The notes under the pieces are model-generated. The model was given only the letters and a program-made list of their open reading frames with translations, made no database searches and had not been told where the DNA came from. From Clostridiales bacterium (lineage in GTDB: Bacteria; Bacillota; Clostridia; Peptostreptococcales; Acidaminobacteraceae), in assembly GCA_016342415.1 (NCBI GenBank), contig JAEIOD010000005.1, positions 124,001 through 188,000 of the forward strand: 64,000 nt of DNA, in the 5' to 3' direction. Position 1 is the first letter of the stretch, and each line of letters starts with the position of its first letter. The position numbers were made by a program, and so were the translations under genes. Below, one piece after another: positions 20,715 to 62,970 of the stretch.

Positions 20715-20925
20715 AAGATAAAGACGAGGAAAGAGATAAGTAAATCTATAACAGCGAGTAATCATAGGTGAGAGGTTACAAGATTGAAGCTACTCTGGAG
20801 TTGCAACAAGAAATTGTTGACGGTAACAGCCGTTATATGTAGGATGTATATCTAAAGTGATCGGAAGATAAATAGGGTGGTACCGCGGTAAAGTCGTCCC
20901 TATACGTCACTTTAGTTTTTTTTGT
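20715..20925 (+). promoter_or_regulatory. T-box riboswitch, alanine type
   Basis: tRNA-sensing leader controlling alaS. The T-box sequence AGGGTGGTACCGCGG is at 20874-20888. A specifier codon GCT (alanine) at 20789-20791 lies in the GAA-GCT-AC context typical of the specifier loop. Stem I begins near 20722. Uncharged tRNA-Ala would pair with the specifier and with the T-box bulge and favour the antiterminator. A GCT specifier agrees with the downstream gene. The helices between were not fully traced. Confidence 0.93.
20852..20923 (+). terminator. T-box conditional terminator
   Basis: CTAAAGTGA (20852-20860) pairs perfectly with TCACTTTAG (20907-20915), followed by eight T residues. Inner pairing joins ATAGGG (20872-20877) with CCCTAT (20898-20903). 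The stem contains the T-box sequence, so it excludes the antiterminator. Confidence 0.9.
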
Positions 20926-20944: not shown

Positions 20945-23563
20945 ATGAATATTACAGGATTAAATGAAATCAGAAAAAGTTTTTTAGATTTCTTTGAGTC
21001 TAAAGACCATTACGTTGGAAAAAGCTATTCTTTAGTACCGCAAAATGATAAGAGTTTATTACTTGTCAATGCTGGTATGGCACCCCTTAAGACTTATTTC
21101 ACAGGAGAGGAAACCCCTCCTAGTAAAAGAATGGCCACATGTCAAAGATGTATGAGAACAGCTGATATAGATAATGTTGGTCATACTTCACGACATGCTA
21201 CTTTTTTTGAAATGTTAGGAAATTTTTCGTTTGGAGACTATTTTAAAGTTGAATCTTTAGAGTGGGGTTGGGAATATATTACTGAAGTGTTGGGATTGCC
21301 TGTAGATAATCTTTGGGCAACTGTATATTTAACAGATGATGAAGCTTATGATATATGGAAAGATGTCATTAAAATAGATGAAAACAGAATTGTTCGATTA
21401 GGAAAAGAAGATAATTTCTGGGAAAAAGGTACTGGACCTTGTGGGCCGTGTTCCGAAATCTATTATGATAGAGGTGAAAAGTATGGTTGCGACAATCCTG
21501 ACTGTAAACCAGGGTGTGAATGTGATCGTTTTATAGAGTTCTGGAATCATGTATTTACTCAATTTGATAAAGATGCTGAAGGAAACTATAATGATTTGGC
21601 TAATCCAAATATTGATACTGGTATGGGTTTGGAAAGGATTGCATGTATCATGCAAGATGTTGAATCTATATTTGAAATTGATACCATGAAACATGTTTTA
21701 GATGCTGTGGTTGAAAAAGCAGGCATCACTTTTGGAGATAATAAAAAAGAAAGCGTTTCAGTAAAAATTATTACAGATCATGTTAGAGCGATTACATTTA
21801 TGGTGTTAGATGGCGTAATGCCTAATAATGAAGGCCGTGGTTATATACTTAGAAAAGTTTTAAGAAGAGCTTATAGACATGGCAAATTATTGAATATTGA
21901 AGGTATTTTCTTAACGGATTTAGTAGATGAAGTGATTGAAATATCAAAAGCTGCTTATCCGGAATTGGTTGAGAAAAAAGATTATATCAAGAAAGTCATT
22001 GCACTTGAAGAAGAAAGATTCCAACAAACGATTAATCAAGGACTTGATATCTTAAAAGGATATATAACAGATTTAAAAGGTGAAGAGTTAAGTGGCGAAA
22101 AAGCTTTTAAACTTTATGACACTTACGGCTTCCCAATTGATTTAACAAAGGAAATTTTAGCTGAGGAAAATTTAACTGTTGATGAAAAAGCGTTTAACAA
22201 TGAAATGAAATTGCAAAAAGAACGTGCAAGAGCAGCTCGCGGTAACGATCAAAGCGCTTGGGAAAAATCTGCATTATCTGAAACCGATATTAAGGATTCA
22301 ATTTTTAACGGTTACAGTAATTTAACGGGTACATCAAAAGTATTGGCAATCGTATCTGATGGTGAGTTAGTAGATTCCATAGGTGAGAATACAGAGGCTG
22401 ATATTGTACTTGATCAAACAACTTTCTATCCAGAAGGTGGTGGTCAAGCAGGTGATAAAGGCCTTGTTAAAACAGATAGTGGTATATTTGTAGTGACTAA
22501 TACGATTAAAGGCATTATGAATAGAATTATTCATCATGGTTATATGAAATCTGGTTTGATTCAAAGTGGTGATATGGTTGAAACTCATGTAGATGCCGAG
22601 ATTAGAATGGCAAGTGCAAGAAATCATACTGCTACACATATTCTTCACAAAGTATTAAAAGAGACATTAGGAGATCATGTAGAACAAAAGGGTTCTTTAG
22701 TAGATTCTATGAAATTACGTTTTGACTTTTCTCACTTTGAAGGGATTACAGCTGAAACGCTTCAGTCTATAGAGAATCAGGTGAATGAGAGACTGTTTGA
22801 AACACTTCCTGTACAAACTGAACAATTGGCTATAGATGAAGCAAAAAAACGTGGTGCTACAGCATTGTTTGGTGAGAAATATGGTGACACTGTAAGAGTG
22901 GTTACTGTTGGTGAGTTCTCTATGGAATTATGTGGTGGTACTCATGTGGAAAATGCTTCGCAAATTGGTTTGATAAAGATTATTTCTGAAAGTGGTATTG
23001 CTGCAGGTGTACGAAGAATTGAAGCCATTACTGGTAAGGCAGTTTATAATTACTTAAGCCAAGTGGAAGATAAAATGAAACACATTTCCAATATTGTTAA
23101 AGGTAACTTTGATGATGTTGAAACAAAGGTGGAATCGCTTGCTAACGAAGTTAAGTCGCTTCATAAGGAAGTTGAAAAGATGAAGTCAAAAGCAGCTTCT
23201 TCTGGCATTGAGGATATTATTAACAACGCAAAAGTGATCAATGGTTTAAATGTAATCACTGGCAAGTTAAAAGGTGTACAACCTAATAACCTACGAGAAC
23301 TTGCCGACAAAATCTCTGATAAAATAAAGGATAGTGTGGTTGTATTGGCATCAGACAATGGTGAAAAGGTTGCATTAATTGCTATGGCAGATGAAGTCGC
23401 TGTTAATAAAGGTGCTCATGCGGGTAATATTATTAAAGTAATCGCTAAAATGACCGGTGGCGGTGGTGGTGGTCGTCCTAATATGGCCCAAGCTGGTGGT
23501 AAGGACGGTTCTAAGATTGATGAAGCGTTAGAGATGGTTTCAAAAATTATAGATGAAATATAA
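20945..23563 (+). CDS. alaS: Alanine--tRNA ligase
   Basis: Charges tRNA-Ala. 872 residues, full family length. The class II catalytic core shows HATFFEMLGNFSFGDYF (motif 1 region) and GMGLERIACIMQ (motif 3). The editing domain has the zinc-type motifs HTATHILHKVL and LCGGTHV. The C-terminal C-Ala/DHHA1 domain ends with the glycine-rich GGGGGGRPNMAQAGG segment typical of AlaRS. AGGAGG lies before ATG 20945. Expression is under the T-box. It heads the conserved order alaS-ireB-...-ruvX-yrzB. Confidence 0.98.
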   Translation: MNITGLNEIRKSFLDFFESKDHYVGKSYSLVPQNDKSLLLVNAGMAPLKTYFTGEETPPSKRMATCQRCMRTADIDNVGHTSRHATFFEMLGNFSFGDYFKVESLEWGWEYITEVLGLPVDNLWATVYLTDDEAYDIWKDVIKIDENRIVRLGKEDNFWEKGTGPCGPCSEIYYDRGEKYGCDNPDCKPGCECDRFIEFWNHVFTQFDKDAEGNYNDLANPNIDTGMGLERIACIMQDVESIFEIDTMKHVLDAVVEKAGITFGDNKKESVSVKIITDHVRAITFMVLDGVMPNNEGRGYILRKVLRRAYRHGKLLNIEGIFLTDLVDEVIEISKAAYPELVEKKDYIKKVIALEEERFQQTINQGLDILKGYITDLKGEELSGEKAFKLYDTYGFPIDLTKEILAEENLTVDEKAFNNEMKLQKERARAARGNDQSAWEKSALSETDIKDSIFNGYSNLTGTSKVLAIVSDGELVDSIGENTEADIVLDQTTFYPEGGGQAGDKGLVKTDSGIFVVTNTIKGIMNRIIHHGYMKSGLIQSGDMVETHVDAEIRMASARNHTATHILHKVLKETLGDHVEQKGSLVDSMKLRFDFSHFEGITAETLQSIENQVNERLFETLPVQTEQLAIDEAKKRGATALFGEKYGDTVRVVTVGEFSMELCGGTHVENASQIGLIKIISESGIAAGVRRIEAITGKAVYNYLSQVEDKMKHISNIVKGNFDDVETKVESLANEVKSLHKEVEKMKSKAASSGIEDIINNAKVINGLNVITGKLKGVQPNNLRELADKISDKIKDSVVVLASDNGEKVALIAMADEVAVNKGAHAGNIIKVIAKMTGGGGGGRPNMAQAGGKDGSKIDEALEMVSKIIDEI

Positions 23564-54543: not shown

Positions 54544-54987
54544 ATGACATTCGTTGAAGGTTTAATCAACAATGAATTCTTTAAAGTTGCATTTATTGCT
54601 TGGTTTATAGCGCAATTTTTCAAAGTTATTCTAACTCTATTGATAGAGAAAAAATTGGACATAGGTAGATTTTGGGGATCGGGTGGTATGCCGAGTTCTC
54701 ATACATCAAGTGTTGTCGGAGTATCTACCGCCATTGGATTAGTCAATGGTTTTGGTTCGGCAATGTATGCATTATCTTTAGTTTTTGCGTTTGTAGTGAT
54801 GTACGATGCATCAGGTGTTAGGAGAGCTGTAGGTAAACAAGCAGCTATTCTTAATAATATGATACATGACTTATCAGAACACAAACACATTGAACAAGAG
54901 CAACTAAAGGAACTGATAGGACATACACCTTTTGAAGTTATTGGTGGTGCTATTTTGGGAATCATAGTTGCAAATATTTATTTGTAG
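54544..54987 (+). CDS. YuiD-type divergent PAP2 family membrane protein
   Basis: 147 residues, DUF212. WFIAQFFKVILTLL, then SGGMPSSHTSSVVGVSTA (PAP2-like SxxHTS) and YDASGVRRAVGKQA. Three to four membrane segments. The phosphatase motifs differ from true PAP2 and the substrate is unknown; a role with isoprenoid or lipid phosphates is suggested by position after ispA. AAGGAG precedes ATG 54544. The stop is directly followed by OLE RNA. Confidence 0.88.
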   Translation: MTFVEGLINNEFFKVAFIAWFIAQFFKVILTLLIEKKLDIGRFWGSGGMPSSHTSSVVGVSTAIGLVNGFGSAMYALSLVFAFVVMYDASGVRRAVGKQAAILNNMIHDLSEHKHIEQEQLKELIGHTPFEVIGGAILGIIVANIYL

Positions 54988-55560
54988 TAATTGGGGCACA
55001 GTATCCTAGTCAGTACTTTAATCTCTGAAGGCGGGGCTAAAAATTCGTCAGAGGGCACATCGATGAAGTTCCTGGTAGTTGCTTTAGACGCCCAGTCTGG
55101 GGTGATTGCTGGGAGTAAGGACGAGGGGGCGATCCACAATGGCATGTGGGCGTGGACCCTCTCCTCCGTGGAGACTTGCAATGCAAGATTACACCTGCAA
55201 TGTGTTTTGGTTGTTGATTTTGACAATTATGGTACGTGTAGTGTAGCCTGCCTTGAGCTGGAGAGGTGGACGGTAGATCAGATCAGGAGTCATAGGCCAA
55301 TGAATCTTGATTATTGCTCATCTAAACCGATTTGGCAAAAGAGGCTAGGAAATTATTTGACTGTAGAGGAAAACTCCTAGGCTGAATGTAAAAAAAGGAT
55401 TGAAGTGTGAACTAAGTGGTAGTCTAGTCTGTCTATTGGAAACAACGACAATATGCAATTAAAAGGGAACTGCTGATTTGGCGACAGACCAGTTTGCATA
55501 TGGGAAATCCTACTAGACCTAAGTCGCAGAATTTACTTTTTTTACTGCCCCATTTATATA
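54988..55560 (+). ncRNA. OLE RNA (ornate, large, extremophilic)
   Basis: Large structured non-coding RNA, about 570 bases, that forms a membrane ribonucleoprotein with OapA and is linked in Bacillus halodurans to tolerance of ethanol, cold and Mg2+ stress. Seen here: a long stretch without a credible gene, visibly G+C-richer than its surroundings; the ends pair (TGGGGCA 54992-54998 with TGCCCCA 55546-55552), continuing as AGT/ACT; clear inner helices such as CTTGC-AAT-GCAAG near 55174-55186 and 55424-55433 with 55483-55492. The gene that follows, after 11 bases, is OapA-like, then dxs, tlyA, argR and recN, the setting known for OLE. The identification rests on this context and on general resemblance; boundaries are approximate. 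Promoter not identified; it may be read through from ispA-yuiD. The open frame 54991-55380 inside it is rejected. Confidence 0.92.
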
Positions 55561-55571
55561 TGAGGTGACCT

Positions 55572-56138
55572 ATGAAAAAAATTAGAATTCGAATGAATTC
55601 TTGGATTTACACAATAACAATCATCACATTTTTTGTAACTATAGCCATCAGTTATATAACTGACGTCCTTATGGGCAATACAGGCTTAATAGTTGCAATA
55701 TTTGTGGTGTTAGCCATTGTACTAATTGGTATTATTTTTGATACAATTGGTGTTGCTGTCGCAACAGGAACAAAACAACCGTTTCATTCAATGGCAGCAT
55801 CTAAAATTAAATCAGCAAAGTATTCTTTGCTGTTATTAAATAACGCCAGTCAAGTATCCAACTTTTTTAATGATGTTATAGGAGATATTGCTGGTATTAT
55901 ATCAGGCGCAGCAAGTGCAGTCATTGTAATGAAAATATTAAGTTTAAATGCTGATTTTTTCAATAAATCAGTTATAAGTGTATTATTAAGTTCAGTTGTC
56001 GCGTGTTTAACAGTTGGCGGCAAGGCGATTGGAAAAGAAATTGCCATGACTTATTCAAAAGAAATTGTAAATTTTACAGGTAAAGTTTTATTTGTGATTA
56101 ATGAAAAAACTTTCTTTAAGTTCATTAAAAATATATAG
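55572..56138 (+). CDS. oapA: OLE-associated membrane protein OapA
   Basis: 188 residues with four hydrophobic segments: about 12-33 (IYTITIITFFVTIAISY), 38-63 (GLIVAIFVVLAIVLIGII), 103-125 (IAGIISGAASAVIVMKIL) and 135-155 (VISVLLSSVVACLTVGG). The start is basic (KKIRIR) and a basic, polar loop lies at about 67-100 (MAASKIKSAKYS). Both suit binding to RNA. Aspartates D101 and D105 enter the third segment. OapA in Bacillus halodurans has the same size and topology and binds OLE RNA directly. GAGGTGA precedes ATG 55572, just after the closing stem of OLE. dxs starts 10 bases after its stop. Confidence 0.88.
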   Translation: MKKIRIRMNSWIYTITIITFFVTIAISYITDVLMGNTGLIVAIFVVLAIVLIGIIFDTIGVAVATGTKQPFHSMAASKIKSAKYSLLLLNNASQVSNFFNDVIGDIAGIISGAASAVIVMKILSLNADFFNKSVISVLLSSVVACLTVGGKAIGKEIAMTYSKEIVNFTGKVLFVINEKTFFKFIKNI

Positions 56139-56148
56139 TGGAGAACAT

Positions 56149-57993
56149 ATGATAAATCTAAAAGATATAAAATCACCACAAGATCTTAACAATCTTAGCA
56201 AACGTGATTTGAGCGATTTAGCTGTTCAGATAAGATCTTTTTTACTAGATAATGTATCCTCAACAGGTGGACATTTATCTTCAAACTTAGGTGTCGTTGA
56301 ATTGACACTGTCACTGCACAAAATTTTTGACAGTCCAAATGATAAAATTATTTGGGATGTAGGACATCAAGGTTATGTCCATAAGATTTTGACAGGCAGG
56401 CAAGAGGATTTTAAGACTTTGAGGCAGTTAGATGGCATGAGCGGCTTCTTAAAAGCATCCGAAAGTGAACATGATGCATTTGAAGCAGGACATAGTAGTA
56501 CATCCATTTCTGCTGCTCTTGGTTATGCTAGAGCCTTCAAACTTAAAGGAGTGAAACATAAGGCCGTTGCTGTGATTGGCGATGGAGCTTTAACAGGCGG
56601 TATGGCTTTTGAAGCTTTGAATTACGCTGGACATTCTAATGAGAACATTATTGTTATTTTAAACGACAATGAGATGTCGATTTCTAAAAATGTAGGTGCT
56701 GTTGCTAGTTATCTGGCAAAAGCACGAACCACTACTACTTACGATCATTTTAAAATCAAATTTACTAAAATACTTAAAATGATTCCAATACTCGGAAAAC
56801 CCATTGAGAGTTTTTTAAGAACTCTAAAAAATAGTATCAAACAGTTCTTTGTCAAAGGTATGTTATTCGAGGAGTTCGGTTTTAAGTACTTTGGCGTAAT
56901 AGACGGTCATAATATAGCCAAAATGTTGGATGTATTAGAACATGTAAAAGATGTCGATGGACCAGTTTTGATTCATGTTTCCACAACTAAAGGGAAAGGT
57001 TATCATTTTGCTGAGAAAGAACCTGGTAAGTATCATGGTGTTCCAAAGTTTAATATTGCTGAAGGTATAATAAACACATCGTCTACAATGAAATACCAAG
57101 ATGTAGTTGGAAAAGAATTGATTCGTTTGGCAAGAAAACATGAAAATGTTGTGGCTATCACCGCTGCTATGCCATCGGGTACTGGTTTAACCGAGTTTTC
57201 AAAGGTTTGTAATAAACAGTTTATAGATGTTGGTATAGCTGAGCAAAACGCAGTTACAATGGCTGCAGGTTTATCAAAAGAAGGTATCAAACCCTATGTT
57301 TGTATTTATTCTACATTTTTGCAAAGAGCGTATGATCAGATTGTTCATGATGTTTGTTTGCAGAATTTAGATGTTGTTTTCTGTATAGATAGAGCTGGTC
57401 TAGTGGGTGAAGATGGTGAGACACATCATGGTATATTTGATATATCTTATTTGAGTCATATTCCTAATATGACATTACTTGCCCCAAAAGATAGACATGA
57501 ACTTTCGGAGATGGTAAAATATTCCTATACCTTTAAAGGTCCTCTTGCAATCAGATACCCAAGAGGTAATGCGATTGAAATGAATAAGGAACCCCTAAAT
57601 GATATGAAACCGGAAGTTTTATATGAGGGATCTAAATATTGTATTGTAGCCGTAGGGAATATGGTTCAAGTAGGTTTAGATGTCTGTGATATATTGAAAA
57701 AAGAAAACATTCATGTAACTTTGATAAACCCAAAACAGTTGGTACCGATGAAAGAATCCTTAAAATCAATATTATCTGATTATGAGGTTATATTCACAAT
57801 AGAAGATCATACTATTGTTGGTGGATATGGTTCATATTTATCTTCAGAGATTAATCGAAACTTAATTAAGTTTGCATTACCAAATCAATTTATAGAACAT
57901 GGCAATGTAAATTTATTACACAAGAGATTGGGCTTAGATGCTAAGTCGATTGCTATGAGTATAATGGAACAAGTTAGGAGCATGAATGGCTAA
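56149..57993 (+). CDS. dxs: 1-deoxy-D-xylulose-5-phosphate synthase
   Basis: Thiamine diphosphate enzyme that condenses pyruvate and glyceraldehyde-3-phosphate, first step of the MEP isoprenoid pathway. 614 residues. GHQGYVHKILTGR, GHSSTSISAALGYARA, the ThDP motif GDGALTGGMAFEALNYAG with LNDNEMSISKNVG, and in the pyrimidine domain GIAEQNAVTMAAGL and GEDGETHHGIFDISYL. ATG 56149 with GGAGAAC upstream is chosen; an in-frame ATG at 56101 lies within oapA. It overlaps tlyA. Confidence 0.96.
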   Translation: MINLKDIKSPQDLNNLSKRDLSDLAVQIRSFLLDNVSSTGGHLSSNLGVVELTLSLHKIFDSPNDKIIWDVGHQGYVHKILTGRQEDFKTLRQLDGMSGFLKASESEHDAFEAGHSSTSISAALGYARAFKLKGVKHKAVAVIGDGALTGGMAFEALNYAGHSNENIIVILNDNEMSISKNVGAVASYLAKARTTTTYDHFKIKFTKILKMIPILGKPIESFLRTLKNSIKQFFVKGMLFEEFGFKYFGVIDGHNIAKMLDVLEHVKDVDGPVLIHVSTTKGKGYHFAEKEPGKYHGVPKFNIAEGIINTSSTMKYQDVVGKELIRLARKHENVVAITAAMPSGTGLTEFSKVCNKQFIDVGIAEQNAVTMAAGLSKEGIKPYVCIYSTFLQRAYDQIVHDVCLQNLDVVFCIDRAGLVGEDGETHHGIFDISYLSHIPNMTLLAPKDRHELSEMVKYSYTFKGPLAIRYPRGNAIEMNKEPLNDMKPEVLYEGSKYCIVAVGNMVQVGLDVCDILKKENIHVTLINPKQLVPMKESLKSILSDYEVIFTIEDHTIVGGYGSYLSSEINRNLIKFALPNQFIEHGNVNLLHKRLGLDAKSIAMSIMEQVRSMNG

Positions 57994-61002: not shown

Positions 61003-61752
61003 ATGAAAACGAGTATGAGTGTTGTTGTTGTAGATGACAACGAGAGTTTATCTTATTTAATTAGAGATGGACTGAATAAAGAAGAAGCATTTGAAGTGGT
61101 TGGACTGGCTCATGATGGCGAAGTCGGCATTCAAATGATAAGAGACTTAAAACCTGATATAGTAATACTGGATATGGTTATGCCTAAGGCTGATGGATTA
61201 ACGGTTTTAGAAACATTTAATGGTAAAGAAGGTCCTAATTTTGTCGTTCTTTCTGCCATTGGACATGATGTTATTACTAAGAAATCTATGAGTTTAGGTG
61301 CCATGTATTATATTGTTAAACCTTTCGAAACGACTGCATTAATCAATAGGATGAAACAATTGTTTTTAGGTGATCCTATAAAAGAAATCGAGAAAGAAGA
61401 AGTATTGTACAATATCCATTTAAAGGAATTAATATCAAAGGAATTGAATGCTCTGGCAGTTCCACTTCATGTTAAAGGGTATCACTATATTAAAGATGCT
61501 GTTCAATTGGTGGTCGAATCTAAAGATGCTGTATTACGAATAACCAAAGATATCTATCCCGTGATAGCAGAAAACTCCAATACGACTGCGACCAGTGTGG
61601 AAAGGGCAATAAGGCACGCTATTGATATTACCTTAACAAGGGGTCCGATGGATTTAATATCTGAATACTTTAGAAATGAACTTTTTAATAATAAAATCAC
61701 CAATAAAGAATTTATAGTTGGAATTGCAGATACGGTAAAACACAGATTATAG
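61003..61752 (+). CDS. spo0A: Response regulator Spo0A
   Basis: Master regulator of stationary phase and sporulation. 249 residues. Receiver domain with acidic pocket VVVVDDNES, phospho-acceptor D57 in IVILDMVMPK, and YYIVKPFE lysine. The Spo0A-specific C-terminal DNA-binding domain has YIKDAVQLVVE, ITKDIYPVIAE and the recognition region TTATSVERAIRHAI. AAGGAGAC precedes ATG 61003. It follows recN directly; the usual spoIVB is missing. No phosphorelay kinase for it is identified; the Cache kinases at 16.5-20.7 kb are possible but unproven partners. Confidence 0.96.
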   Translation: MKTSMSVVVVDDNESLSYLIRDGLNKEEAFEVVGLAHDGEVGIQMIRDLKPDIVILDMVMPKADGLTVLETFNGKEGPNFVVLSAIGHDVITKKSMSLGAMYYIVKPFETTALINRMKQLFLGDPIKEIEKEEVLYNIHLKELISKELNALAVPLHVKGYHYIKDAVQLVVESKDAVLRITKDIYPVIAENSNTTATSVERAIRHAIDITLTRGPMDLISEYFRNELFNNKITNKEFIVGIADTVKHRL

Positions 61753-61767: not shown

Positions 61768-62970
61768 GTGCATATTAATTTTTCTAGAATTGTTTTCTCA
61801 TGCTTAGAAGCATTAATTTACATGTTTACGATTCATATGATATTACCTAAAAGTGCTAGGAATGATTGGAAGAGGAATTTAATTTTATATAGTGTAATTA
61901 CCATTTCGAGCTTTTTCTTGTTAAAGGATCATATGGTTTCCATACTGTTATTTTCAACTATTATTACTGGGGCTATATTTATTATCAATAAAGTCAACGT
62001 ATACATAGCTTCTATAACGATGATTATTACCTATATATTGATTACAATAGCCTCTCTAATATCCACAATATTTGGAATATTCTTCTATATTGGTCAATAT
62101 GATTATAGATTTGTTCTAGAGGGACATGATTATAAAGTGATGTTACTTAAAATGAGTATTACTGTTCTCATAGTGTACACTTACAAAATATTTAATTCTC
62201 TATTCAATAGAAAAATAAAAATACAGAAAATCAACCCAAGACCGGTTCTATTTATTAATGTTGTTTATGTGATTTTGGTGATCCTTTTTAGCTGTGAGTT
62301 AATTGTTTATTTACCGACTATTTATGCTGACGTATTAAAAATAGGATCTCTAAATAGTCTGCTTTTTGTAGGAATCTCGATGTTTTTTATAGCAAGCATA
62401 TTTGTTTTGTACATTACAAATATATATTTGTTTAAAAGTAGTGATTACTTATCAATCAAACTGTCTTCAGAGACAGATGCATTGACTGGTGTTTTTAATC
62501 GAAAAGCTGGCATTAATCATTTGAAAGAGCGTATGCAAAATGTTCAGCATAAAAAAACGCCATTAACAATTTGTTTTGTAGATGTTAACAACTTAAAGGA
62601 TATAAATGATACTCATGGACATAAATTAGGTGATAGTTTGATAAAAAATGTTGCTAATATAATTAGTTCAGCTCTTAGAGAAGGTGATGAAGTCGCTCGA
62701 CTAGGAGGAGATGAGTTTTTAGTAATATTTGATAAGTGTTCTATCGAACAGGCAGTACATGCGTGGGATAGAATTATAGAAAGGTTTGAATCGTTTAACC
62801 TGACTGAAAGAGAAATTTATGATATTAGTGTGAGTGTGGGATTTGCTGAATATAATTATAAGTTGAATATCACACATGATACACTCATAGAGTTGGCTGA
62901 TACAGAAATGTATAAGAATAAACAGCGCTACAAACGACTGAAAGGTAAAAATAGAAATGCAAAATGGTAA
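61768..62970 (+). CDS. Membrane diguanylate cyclase (GTG start)
   Basis: 400 residues. Six or so membrane segments fill residues 8-225, in a layout like other sensor domains of signalling kinases and cyclases (SIITIT-type hydrophobic stretches, EALIYMFTIHMIL). The GGDEF domain (about 235-395) is intact: DALTGVFNRKAGINHL, FVDVNNLKDIND, and RLGGDEFLVIF with G313-F317. An inhibitory RxxD site (REGD, 304-307) is present, so it should be feedback-regulated by c-di-GMP. GTG 61768 follows AGGGGGTTG. It lies after spo0A by 15 bases and overlaps the next gene by 14, so it may be co-transcribed with both. Confidence 0.92.
   Translation: MHINFSRIVFSCLEALIYMFTIHMILPKSARNDWKRNLILYSVITISSFFLLKDHMVSILLFSTIITGAIFIINKVNVYIASITMIITYILITIASLISTIFGIFFYIGQYDYRFVLEGHDYKVMLLKMSITVLIVYTYKIFNSLFNRKIKIQKINPRPVLFINVVYVILVILFSCELIVYLPTIYADVLKIGSLNSLLFVGISMFFIASIFVLYITNIYLFKSSDYLSIKLSSETDALTGVFNRKAGINHLKERMQNVQHKKTPLTICFVDVNNLKDINDTHGHKLGDSLIKNVANIISSALREGDEVARLGGDEFLVIFDKCSIEQAVHAWDRIIERFESFNLTEREIYDISVSVGFAEYNYKLNITHDTLIELADTEMYKNKQRYKRLKGKNRNAKW

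Follow-up and report, generated by a model that had tools for sequence, protein, structure and literature searches.

Which element occupies the interval of about 580 bases between the end of yuiD (position 54987) and the start of oapA (position 55572), where no conserved gene is found? The window, the whole stretch of 64,000 nucleotides analyzed here, comes from a Clostridiales bacterium of the same genus as Acidaminobacter sp. JC074. The original prediction described an OLE RNA followed by its protein partner OapA. Among structured bacterial RNAs that still lack an assigned biochemical task, OLE is one of the largest, and for this reason each clean copy found together with its partners aids comparative work.

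Identity of the interval

A scan of the window against the full set of 4227 Rfam families, with the gathering score of each as the threshold, returned two matches, an OLE RNA and a T-box. The OLE RNA (RF01071) was located by cmscan at positions 54977–55567 of the plus strand with a score of 452.3 bits (E-value of 1.5e-129) against the curated gathering score of 50. The match covers positions 1–616 of the 616 positions in the model and is therefore full length. Its first bases, from 54977, lie within the final codons of yuiD and correspond to an unpaired flank of the model. A high-scoring, full-length match on the plus strand at 54.98–55.57 kb had been proposed as the check on the OLE assignment, and this is what the covariance model returned. 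The locus is almost certainly a real and typical OLE-OapA locus, and the sequence is a new member of a known and well-studied RNA class that is already represented in Rfam. A single search of one literature collection that paired OLE RNA with Acidaminobacter found no paper there.

The host genome is a 5.4-Mb draft of 83 contigs with an estimated contamination of 9.08%, and a covariance search of the whole draft assembly identified a single OLE copy. Full-length OLE RNAs are also carried by two genus-mates, Acidaminobacter sp. JC074 (G001; 452.1 bits) and G002 (472.9 bits). Contamination is an unlikely source of the locus because OLE and oapA are found in three members of the genus. The OLE sequence of the window is 88% and 85% identical to those of the two genus-mates and at most 73% identical to the others; relative to known OLE RNAs, it carries genus-specific sequence.

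The G+C content of the region is 44.3%, compared with 35.4% for yuiD, 30.2% for oapA, and 33.6% for the whole window, as had been claimed for the interval relative to its flanks. None of 1269 segments of 584 bases, taken at steps of 50 bases, is as rich in G+C as the OLE region. The longest stop-free run on the plus strand of the OLE RNA extends over 129 codons (54991–55380), and the region could on this basis be read as a small protein gene with a TTG start. The 129-codon product has no Pfam match at E-values up to 1, however, and no comparable plus-strand frame is found in the OLE RNAs of 31 other genomes, where the longest runs are 41–96 codons (44 codons in the genus-mate G001). Base pairing, by contrast, is maintained across 99 OLE sequences. 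A coding role for 54991–55380 was rejected on these grounds and is next to impossible. The description of the interval as about 570 bases without a credible gene holds, with no conserved frame among the OLE RNAs of relatives.

Base-paired structure and conserved elements

The structure of the OLE RNA was evaluated with a sequence-only MAFFT alignment of 99 distinct OLE sequences. These comprise 32 sequences from a set of 61 related genomes and 68 of the 79 from loci fetched through OapA, minus one duplicate. Eleven loci of the latter set were left out: four repeat loci of the first set (L040, L043, L060, and L079), three are cut by contig ends (L055, L062, and L076), L115 is a short copy, and L105, L106, and L114 were judged, by name only, to be close to Bacillaceae that were kept. 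Mapped onto the window, the Rfam structure has 144 pairs, and 87% of the cells in the 99 sequences are standard pairs, compared with 41–46% in a control where the partners were shifted by 1–3 bases. Changes on both sides of a pair in at least one sequence were observed for 120 of the 144 pairs and for 77–93 pairs in the slid control; the paired fraction thus distinguishes the true from the slid structure much more clearly than double changes do. Since the structure was taken from Rfam and the seed may include relatives, this is a test of consistency and not a discovery. The weakest helix (55272–55293 with 55300–55321) is paired in 61% of cells.

Complementary ends had also been claimed for the interval. 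The 5′ strand of this closing helix at 54992–54998 pairs with 55546–55552, and is left unmodelled by Rfam. The helix is 92% paired across the 99 sequences, compared with 25–73% when shifted by 1–3 bases, and the claim is confirmed. Double changes are found for five of the seven pairs, a count that does not discriminate because the slid versions show 3–5. A Watson–Crick run of at least six bases between the ends of the same RNA is found in 82% of the sequences and in 23% when the ends are swapped among sequences, a comparison that is free of the alignment and ignores the kinship of the sequences. Another of the three end-pairing candidates of equal length is 37% paired, no better than its slid versions, and was set aside as lacking support.

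Two more long-range helices were identified. The strand at 55019–55025 has its partner at 55349–55355, with a C-A mismatch at 55023/55351 in the window. Each of the seven columns is at least 85% paired and all seven are doubly changed; the helix is the longest match of a scan that was run without a slid control. The same scan identified CCUAG at 55005–55009, which is able to pair with CUAGG at 55377–55381. Each of these five positions is at least 85% paired, one double change is seen in total, and the strands are nearly invariant and also allow shifted alternative pairings. All three of these helices, which the Rfam model lacks, have support. They may be the P1–P3 stems of the OLE literature, and no novelty is claimed for them. 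The OLE model of Rfam 15 leaves 54992–54998/55546–55552 and 55019–55025/55349–55355 unpaired and could perhaps be improved at these places.

The names of helices and loops were assigned by us to the window coordinates from published texts and not from structure figures, and all elements are on the plus strand. The L4 hairpin (55030–55049) carries a run of A residues in its loop (GCUAAAAA), where the C, the U, and five A residues are each 99–100% conserved in the 99 sequences. This run corresponds to the A-A dimer bridge B1 described in PMC12286853. The GCCCA of L5 is present in 99/99 OLE sequences. The segment assigned as the J4a/5 k-turn (55053–55068; GGGCACAUCGAUGAAG) is identical in 65/99, and the k-turn at J4a/5 is reported to be bound by OapC in Halalkalibacterium halodurans (PMC9723947). 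The loop AGGCCA at 55294–55299, which we infer to be L9.3, contains a self-complementary GGCC that is found in 83/99 sequences; L9.3 is the published kissing loop B3 of the dimer. The hairpin at 55472–55493, taken as P13, contains a GGCGAC that is identical in 62/99, and the P13 region is described as the binding site of OapB in H. halodurans (PMC12265935). A CCUCC that was taken as a mimic of the anti-Shine-Dalgarno sequence for bS21 is exact in just 1/99 sequences at the columns chosen, and the binding of bS21 here is unsure for this reason.

The OLE RNA of the window shares its helices and conserved loops with those of H. halodurans and C. acetobutylicum. It differs from the Rfam model at a short hairpin, presumably P7 (CUUGC-AAU-GCAAG; 55175–55187), where the model has 31 extra positions, and at the next hairpin, which has 18 nt inserted. 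P7 is 13 nt long with a loop of 3 nt; it is the same in G001 and has a slightly longer loop in G002. The P7 interval is 14 nt in the window and ranges over 11–67 nt among the 99 sequences, so the short P7 is within the known range. Because the published dimer bridge B2 uses L7 (PMC12286853), contacts at P7 may differ.

The short P7, together with a score of 452.3 bits that ranks 28th among the 32 found in related genomes (range of 350–558), might point to a decayed and nonfunctional copy. This is exceedingly unlikely: the match spans the whole model, the L4, L5, k-turn strand, and L13 elements are conserved, oapA is intact, and both genus-mates have full-length OLE RNAs. Further published work on OLE RNA is available in PMC12054373.

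OapA and its association with OLE RNA

The gene oapA (55572–56138, plus strand) encodes a protein of 188 residues with the DxxxD motif DVIGD at residues 101–105. Residues N100, D101, V102, G104, and D105 are invariant in 21/21 sequences. The structure predicted with AF2 has a pLDDT of 85.9, and its best match in the PDB is the CNNM domain of MtCorB (Z of 13.0, rmsd of 2.5, 133 aligned residues), followed by a bacterial CorC domain (Z of 11.7) and a first unrelated chain (Z of 8.2); for helical bundles, Z values under about 13 may reflect just a common arrangement. The Foldseek match to MtCorB is weak, with a best E-value of 8.4e-3. No Pfam model scores above its cut-off and NCBIfam provides no match; the one sub-threshold Pfam match, to CarA_N (20.8 bits against a cut-off of 21), was set aside as chance. 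The matches from a sequence search of the PDB are likewise weak (best E-value of 0.013), and most of them are to chains that are helical or form coiled coils.

The similarity of OapA to MtCorB and the DxxxD signature are already reported in PMC11332333. The predicted model suggests that OapA shares its transmembrane fold with the CNNM/CorB/CorC (MpfA) transporters for Mg2+. It differs from MpfA in its size of 188 residues and in the absence of tandem CBS and CorC domains, neither of which appears in Pfam at E-values up to 1, and from CNNM domains in its DxxxD, which those domains are reported to lack (PMC11332333). Relative to other OapA proteins it has the same DxxxD, position, size, and predicted CNNM-like fold, and its identity of 42–54% to those from other genera is ordinary divergence. 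The original assignment of the 188-residue protein as OapA is supported by its position, the DxxxD motif, the predicted CNNM-like fold, and the co-occurrence with OLE.

The neighborhood was identified by family scans. The upstream genes are those for Asp23, NusB, a TsaD-like protein, XseA, XseB, FPP synthase, and YuiD/DUF212 (54544–54987, plus strand; PF02681, E-value of 2.5e-49), followed by OLE. Downstream of OLE are OapA, Dxs (56149–57993, plus strand; TIGR00204, 758.8 bits), a TlyA-like protein (S4 and FtsJ), ArgR, a RecN-like protein (SMC_N), and Spo0A. The start of dxs is most likely at 56149, behind GGAGAAC. The predicted order of ispA-yuiD-[OLE]-oapA-dxs-tlyA-argR-recN-spo0A was reproduced by these scans, and as with known OLE RNAs, the copy in the window precedes oapA amid genes of isoprenoid, translation, and DNA-repair functions. 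At 61003–61752 and 61768–62970 (plus strand), Spo0A (TIGR02875, 223.1 bits) is directly followed by a GGDEF protein and a tyrosine recombinase.

OLE is present in 32 of 61 related genomes, with the genome of the window included and with search filters that lose some weak matches, and OapA is present in 33 of the same 61. The additional genome (G052) was rejected as a case of OapA without OLE: its contig breaks off inside an OLE RNA, of which the final 120 bases (78.5 bits) remain. OLE and OapA therefore agree in 61/61 genomes. An OapA with DxxxD follows OLE in 32/32 genomes with a full OLE, the window's own included (31 by sequence pattern and L031, with QDVVGD, by reading).

A second set was obtained from OapA loci fetched by the protein alone, as the best 80 of at least 570 that were confirmed, and is thus biased toward typical OapA. 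OLE was found on the locus in 79 of these best 80, with three cut by a contig end. Five genomes are common to both sets (L040 = G001, L041 = G040, L043 = G057, L060 = G008, and L079 = G037). The 80th locus, from Anaerofustis stercorihominis (L107), was rejected as a true exception since its OLE (455.8 bits) is found on a different contig, 109 bases from the edge of a contig of 4371 bases.

The OLE model ends just 4 nt before the start codon of oapA, and the likely ribosome-binding site of oapA (GAGGTGA) shares bases with the model's unpaired 3′ tail, as would be expected if the RNA were a riboswitch-like, cis-regulatory leader of oapA-dxs instead of a free RNA. Such a leader is very unlikely: the OLE of A. 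stercorihominis is on another contig with none found before oapA, OLE is described as a membrane ribonucleoprotein in H. halodurans (PMC12265935), and no terminator-like hairpin is found on the plus strand between OLE and oapA. Scans identified 10 promoter-like sites against 6.7 expected and two terminator-like sites against 0.8. The preferred reading is a free OLE RNA paired with OapA.

In A. stercorihominis (L107 and L122), where no OLE was detected before oapA, the OLE is convergent with a valS-like gene (named by eye). This species provides a natural case in which oapA and ole are retained together though apart. The OLE RNA of Bacillus fonticola (L115, 1940–2428) has 489 bases and a score of 253.3 bits, and is possibly a reduced form.

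Partner proteins and metal handling

Homologues of OapB, OapC, and bS21 were identified in the genome; the genes that flank them were named by eye. The OapB candidate has 99 residues, is encoded between map and infA, and matches the OLE-associated protein B in the PDB (7k9b) with an E-value of 2.4e-10. This position, which we take to be the usual one for oapB, was used to locate the candidate. A genome search with the KOW domain (PF00467) returned two proteins only, L24 and NusG as judged by eye, and missed OapB; with NCBIfam, the candidate has a sub-threshold match to L14e alone (24 bits versus 87). The OapC candidate is an L7Ae-like protein of 82 residues encoded between rpoC and rpsL, which matches YbxF (3v7e) with an E-value of 1.3e-13; its L7Ae-like matches in NCBIfam are below threshold (best of 85.4 versus 113). 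A second L7Ae protein, between nusA-like and infB-like genes, is best matched by models of the L7Ae/YlxQ type, below the cut-offs. The bS21 homologue was found with an E-value of 1.2e-21. OapB, OapC, and bS21 are reported to be common but not universal partners in the OLE family (PMC11332333).

The present analysis establishes which family the RNA belongs to and that its structure is conserved and covaries, assigns the family of OapA together with a predicted fold, and finds homologues of OapB, OapC, and bS21 in the genome. A mechanism can be proposed in which binding, membrane location, dimerization, and stress function are drawn from published studies of H. halodurans and C. acetobutylicum. 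The transcript would fold as an OLE RNA and probably dimerize via L4, L5–L7, and L9.3. OapA, as a small CNNM-like membrane protein of four segments, would anchor the RNA at the membrane, and OapC (at the k-turn), OapB (at P13), and bS21 (at P6) would bind to form the OLE ribonucleoprotein. The complex might act as in H. halodurans, where it is required under stress from cold, alcohol, high Mg2+, and poor carbon sources. Its core function would most likely be the RNA-controlled handling of divalent metals (Mg2+) by OapA, in place of the MpfA-type CNNM-CBS proteins of species without OLE. Metal handling by OapA is the least certain part of this proposal, with about an even chance of being correct.

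The number of CNNM proteins was determined for 52 genomes that are at least 90% complete, with the genome of the window included and G052 scored as OLE-bearing. Domain matches above 70 bits were counted regardless of CBS/CorC architecture. Twelve weaker rows were dropped: G055 and G002 account for one each, the latter a partial match of 33.9 bits, and the other 10 lie on the oapA genes of 10 relatives. The mean number of CNNM proteins per genome is 0.66 with OLE (n = 32) and 1.95 without OLE (n = 20). No CNNM protein is found in 15/32 genomes with OLE and in 1/20 without it (Mann–Whitney p of 1e-5, uncorrected for kinship); 17/32 of the OLE genomes still carry one. These counts agree with the anticorrelation of OLE and MpfA already reported in PMC11332333. 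The copy described here confirms the strict pairing of OLE with OapA, and the smaller number of MpfA-type proteins, in the family around Acidaminobacter, and leaves the general picture unchanged.

A search for CNNM/MpfA-type proteins provided no match in the genome of the window and none in G001. It is conceivable, though doubtful, that the OLE ribonucleoprotein is the sole CNNM-type metal system of the cell within this genus. If so, ole-oapA alone would carry Mg2+ homeostasis and cells might suffer severely from losing it even when unstressed, an effect that is a guess; Acidaminobacter would also be a cleaner test of the role of OLE than species that have MpfA as well. The model species H. 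halodurans is likewise reported to be without mpfA (PMC11332333), and its growth under optimal conditions is described as normal when OLE is absent (PMC12265935); a genus without MpfA therefore extends a known pattern.

No tRNA genes were found in the window. The second Rfam match is an ordinary T-box leader (RF00230) at 20718–20904 of the plus strand with a score of 105.4 bits, directly 5′ of an alaS-like gene (20945–23563, named by eye).
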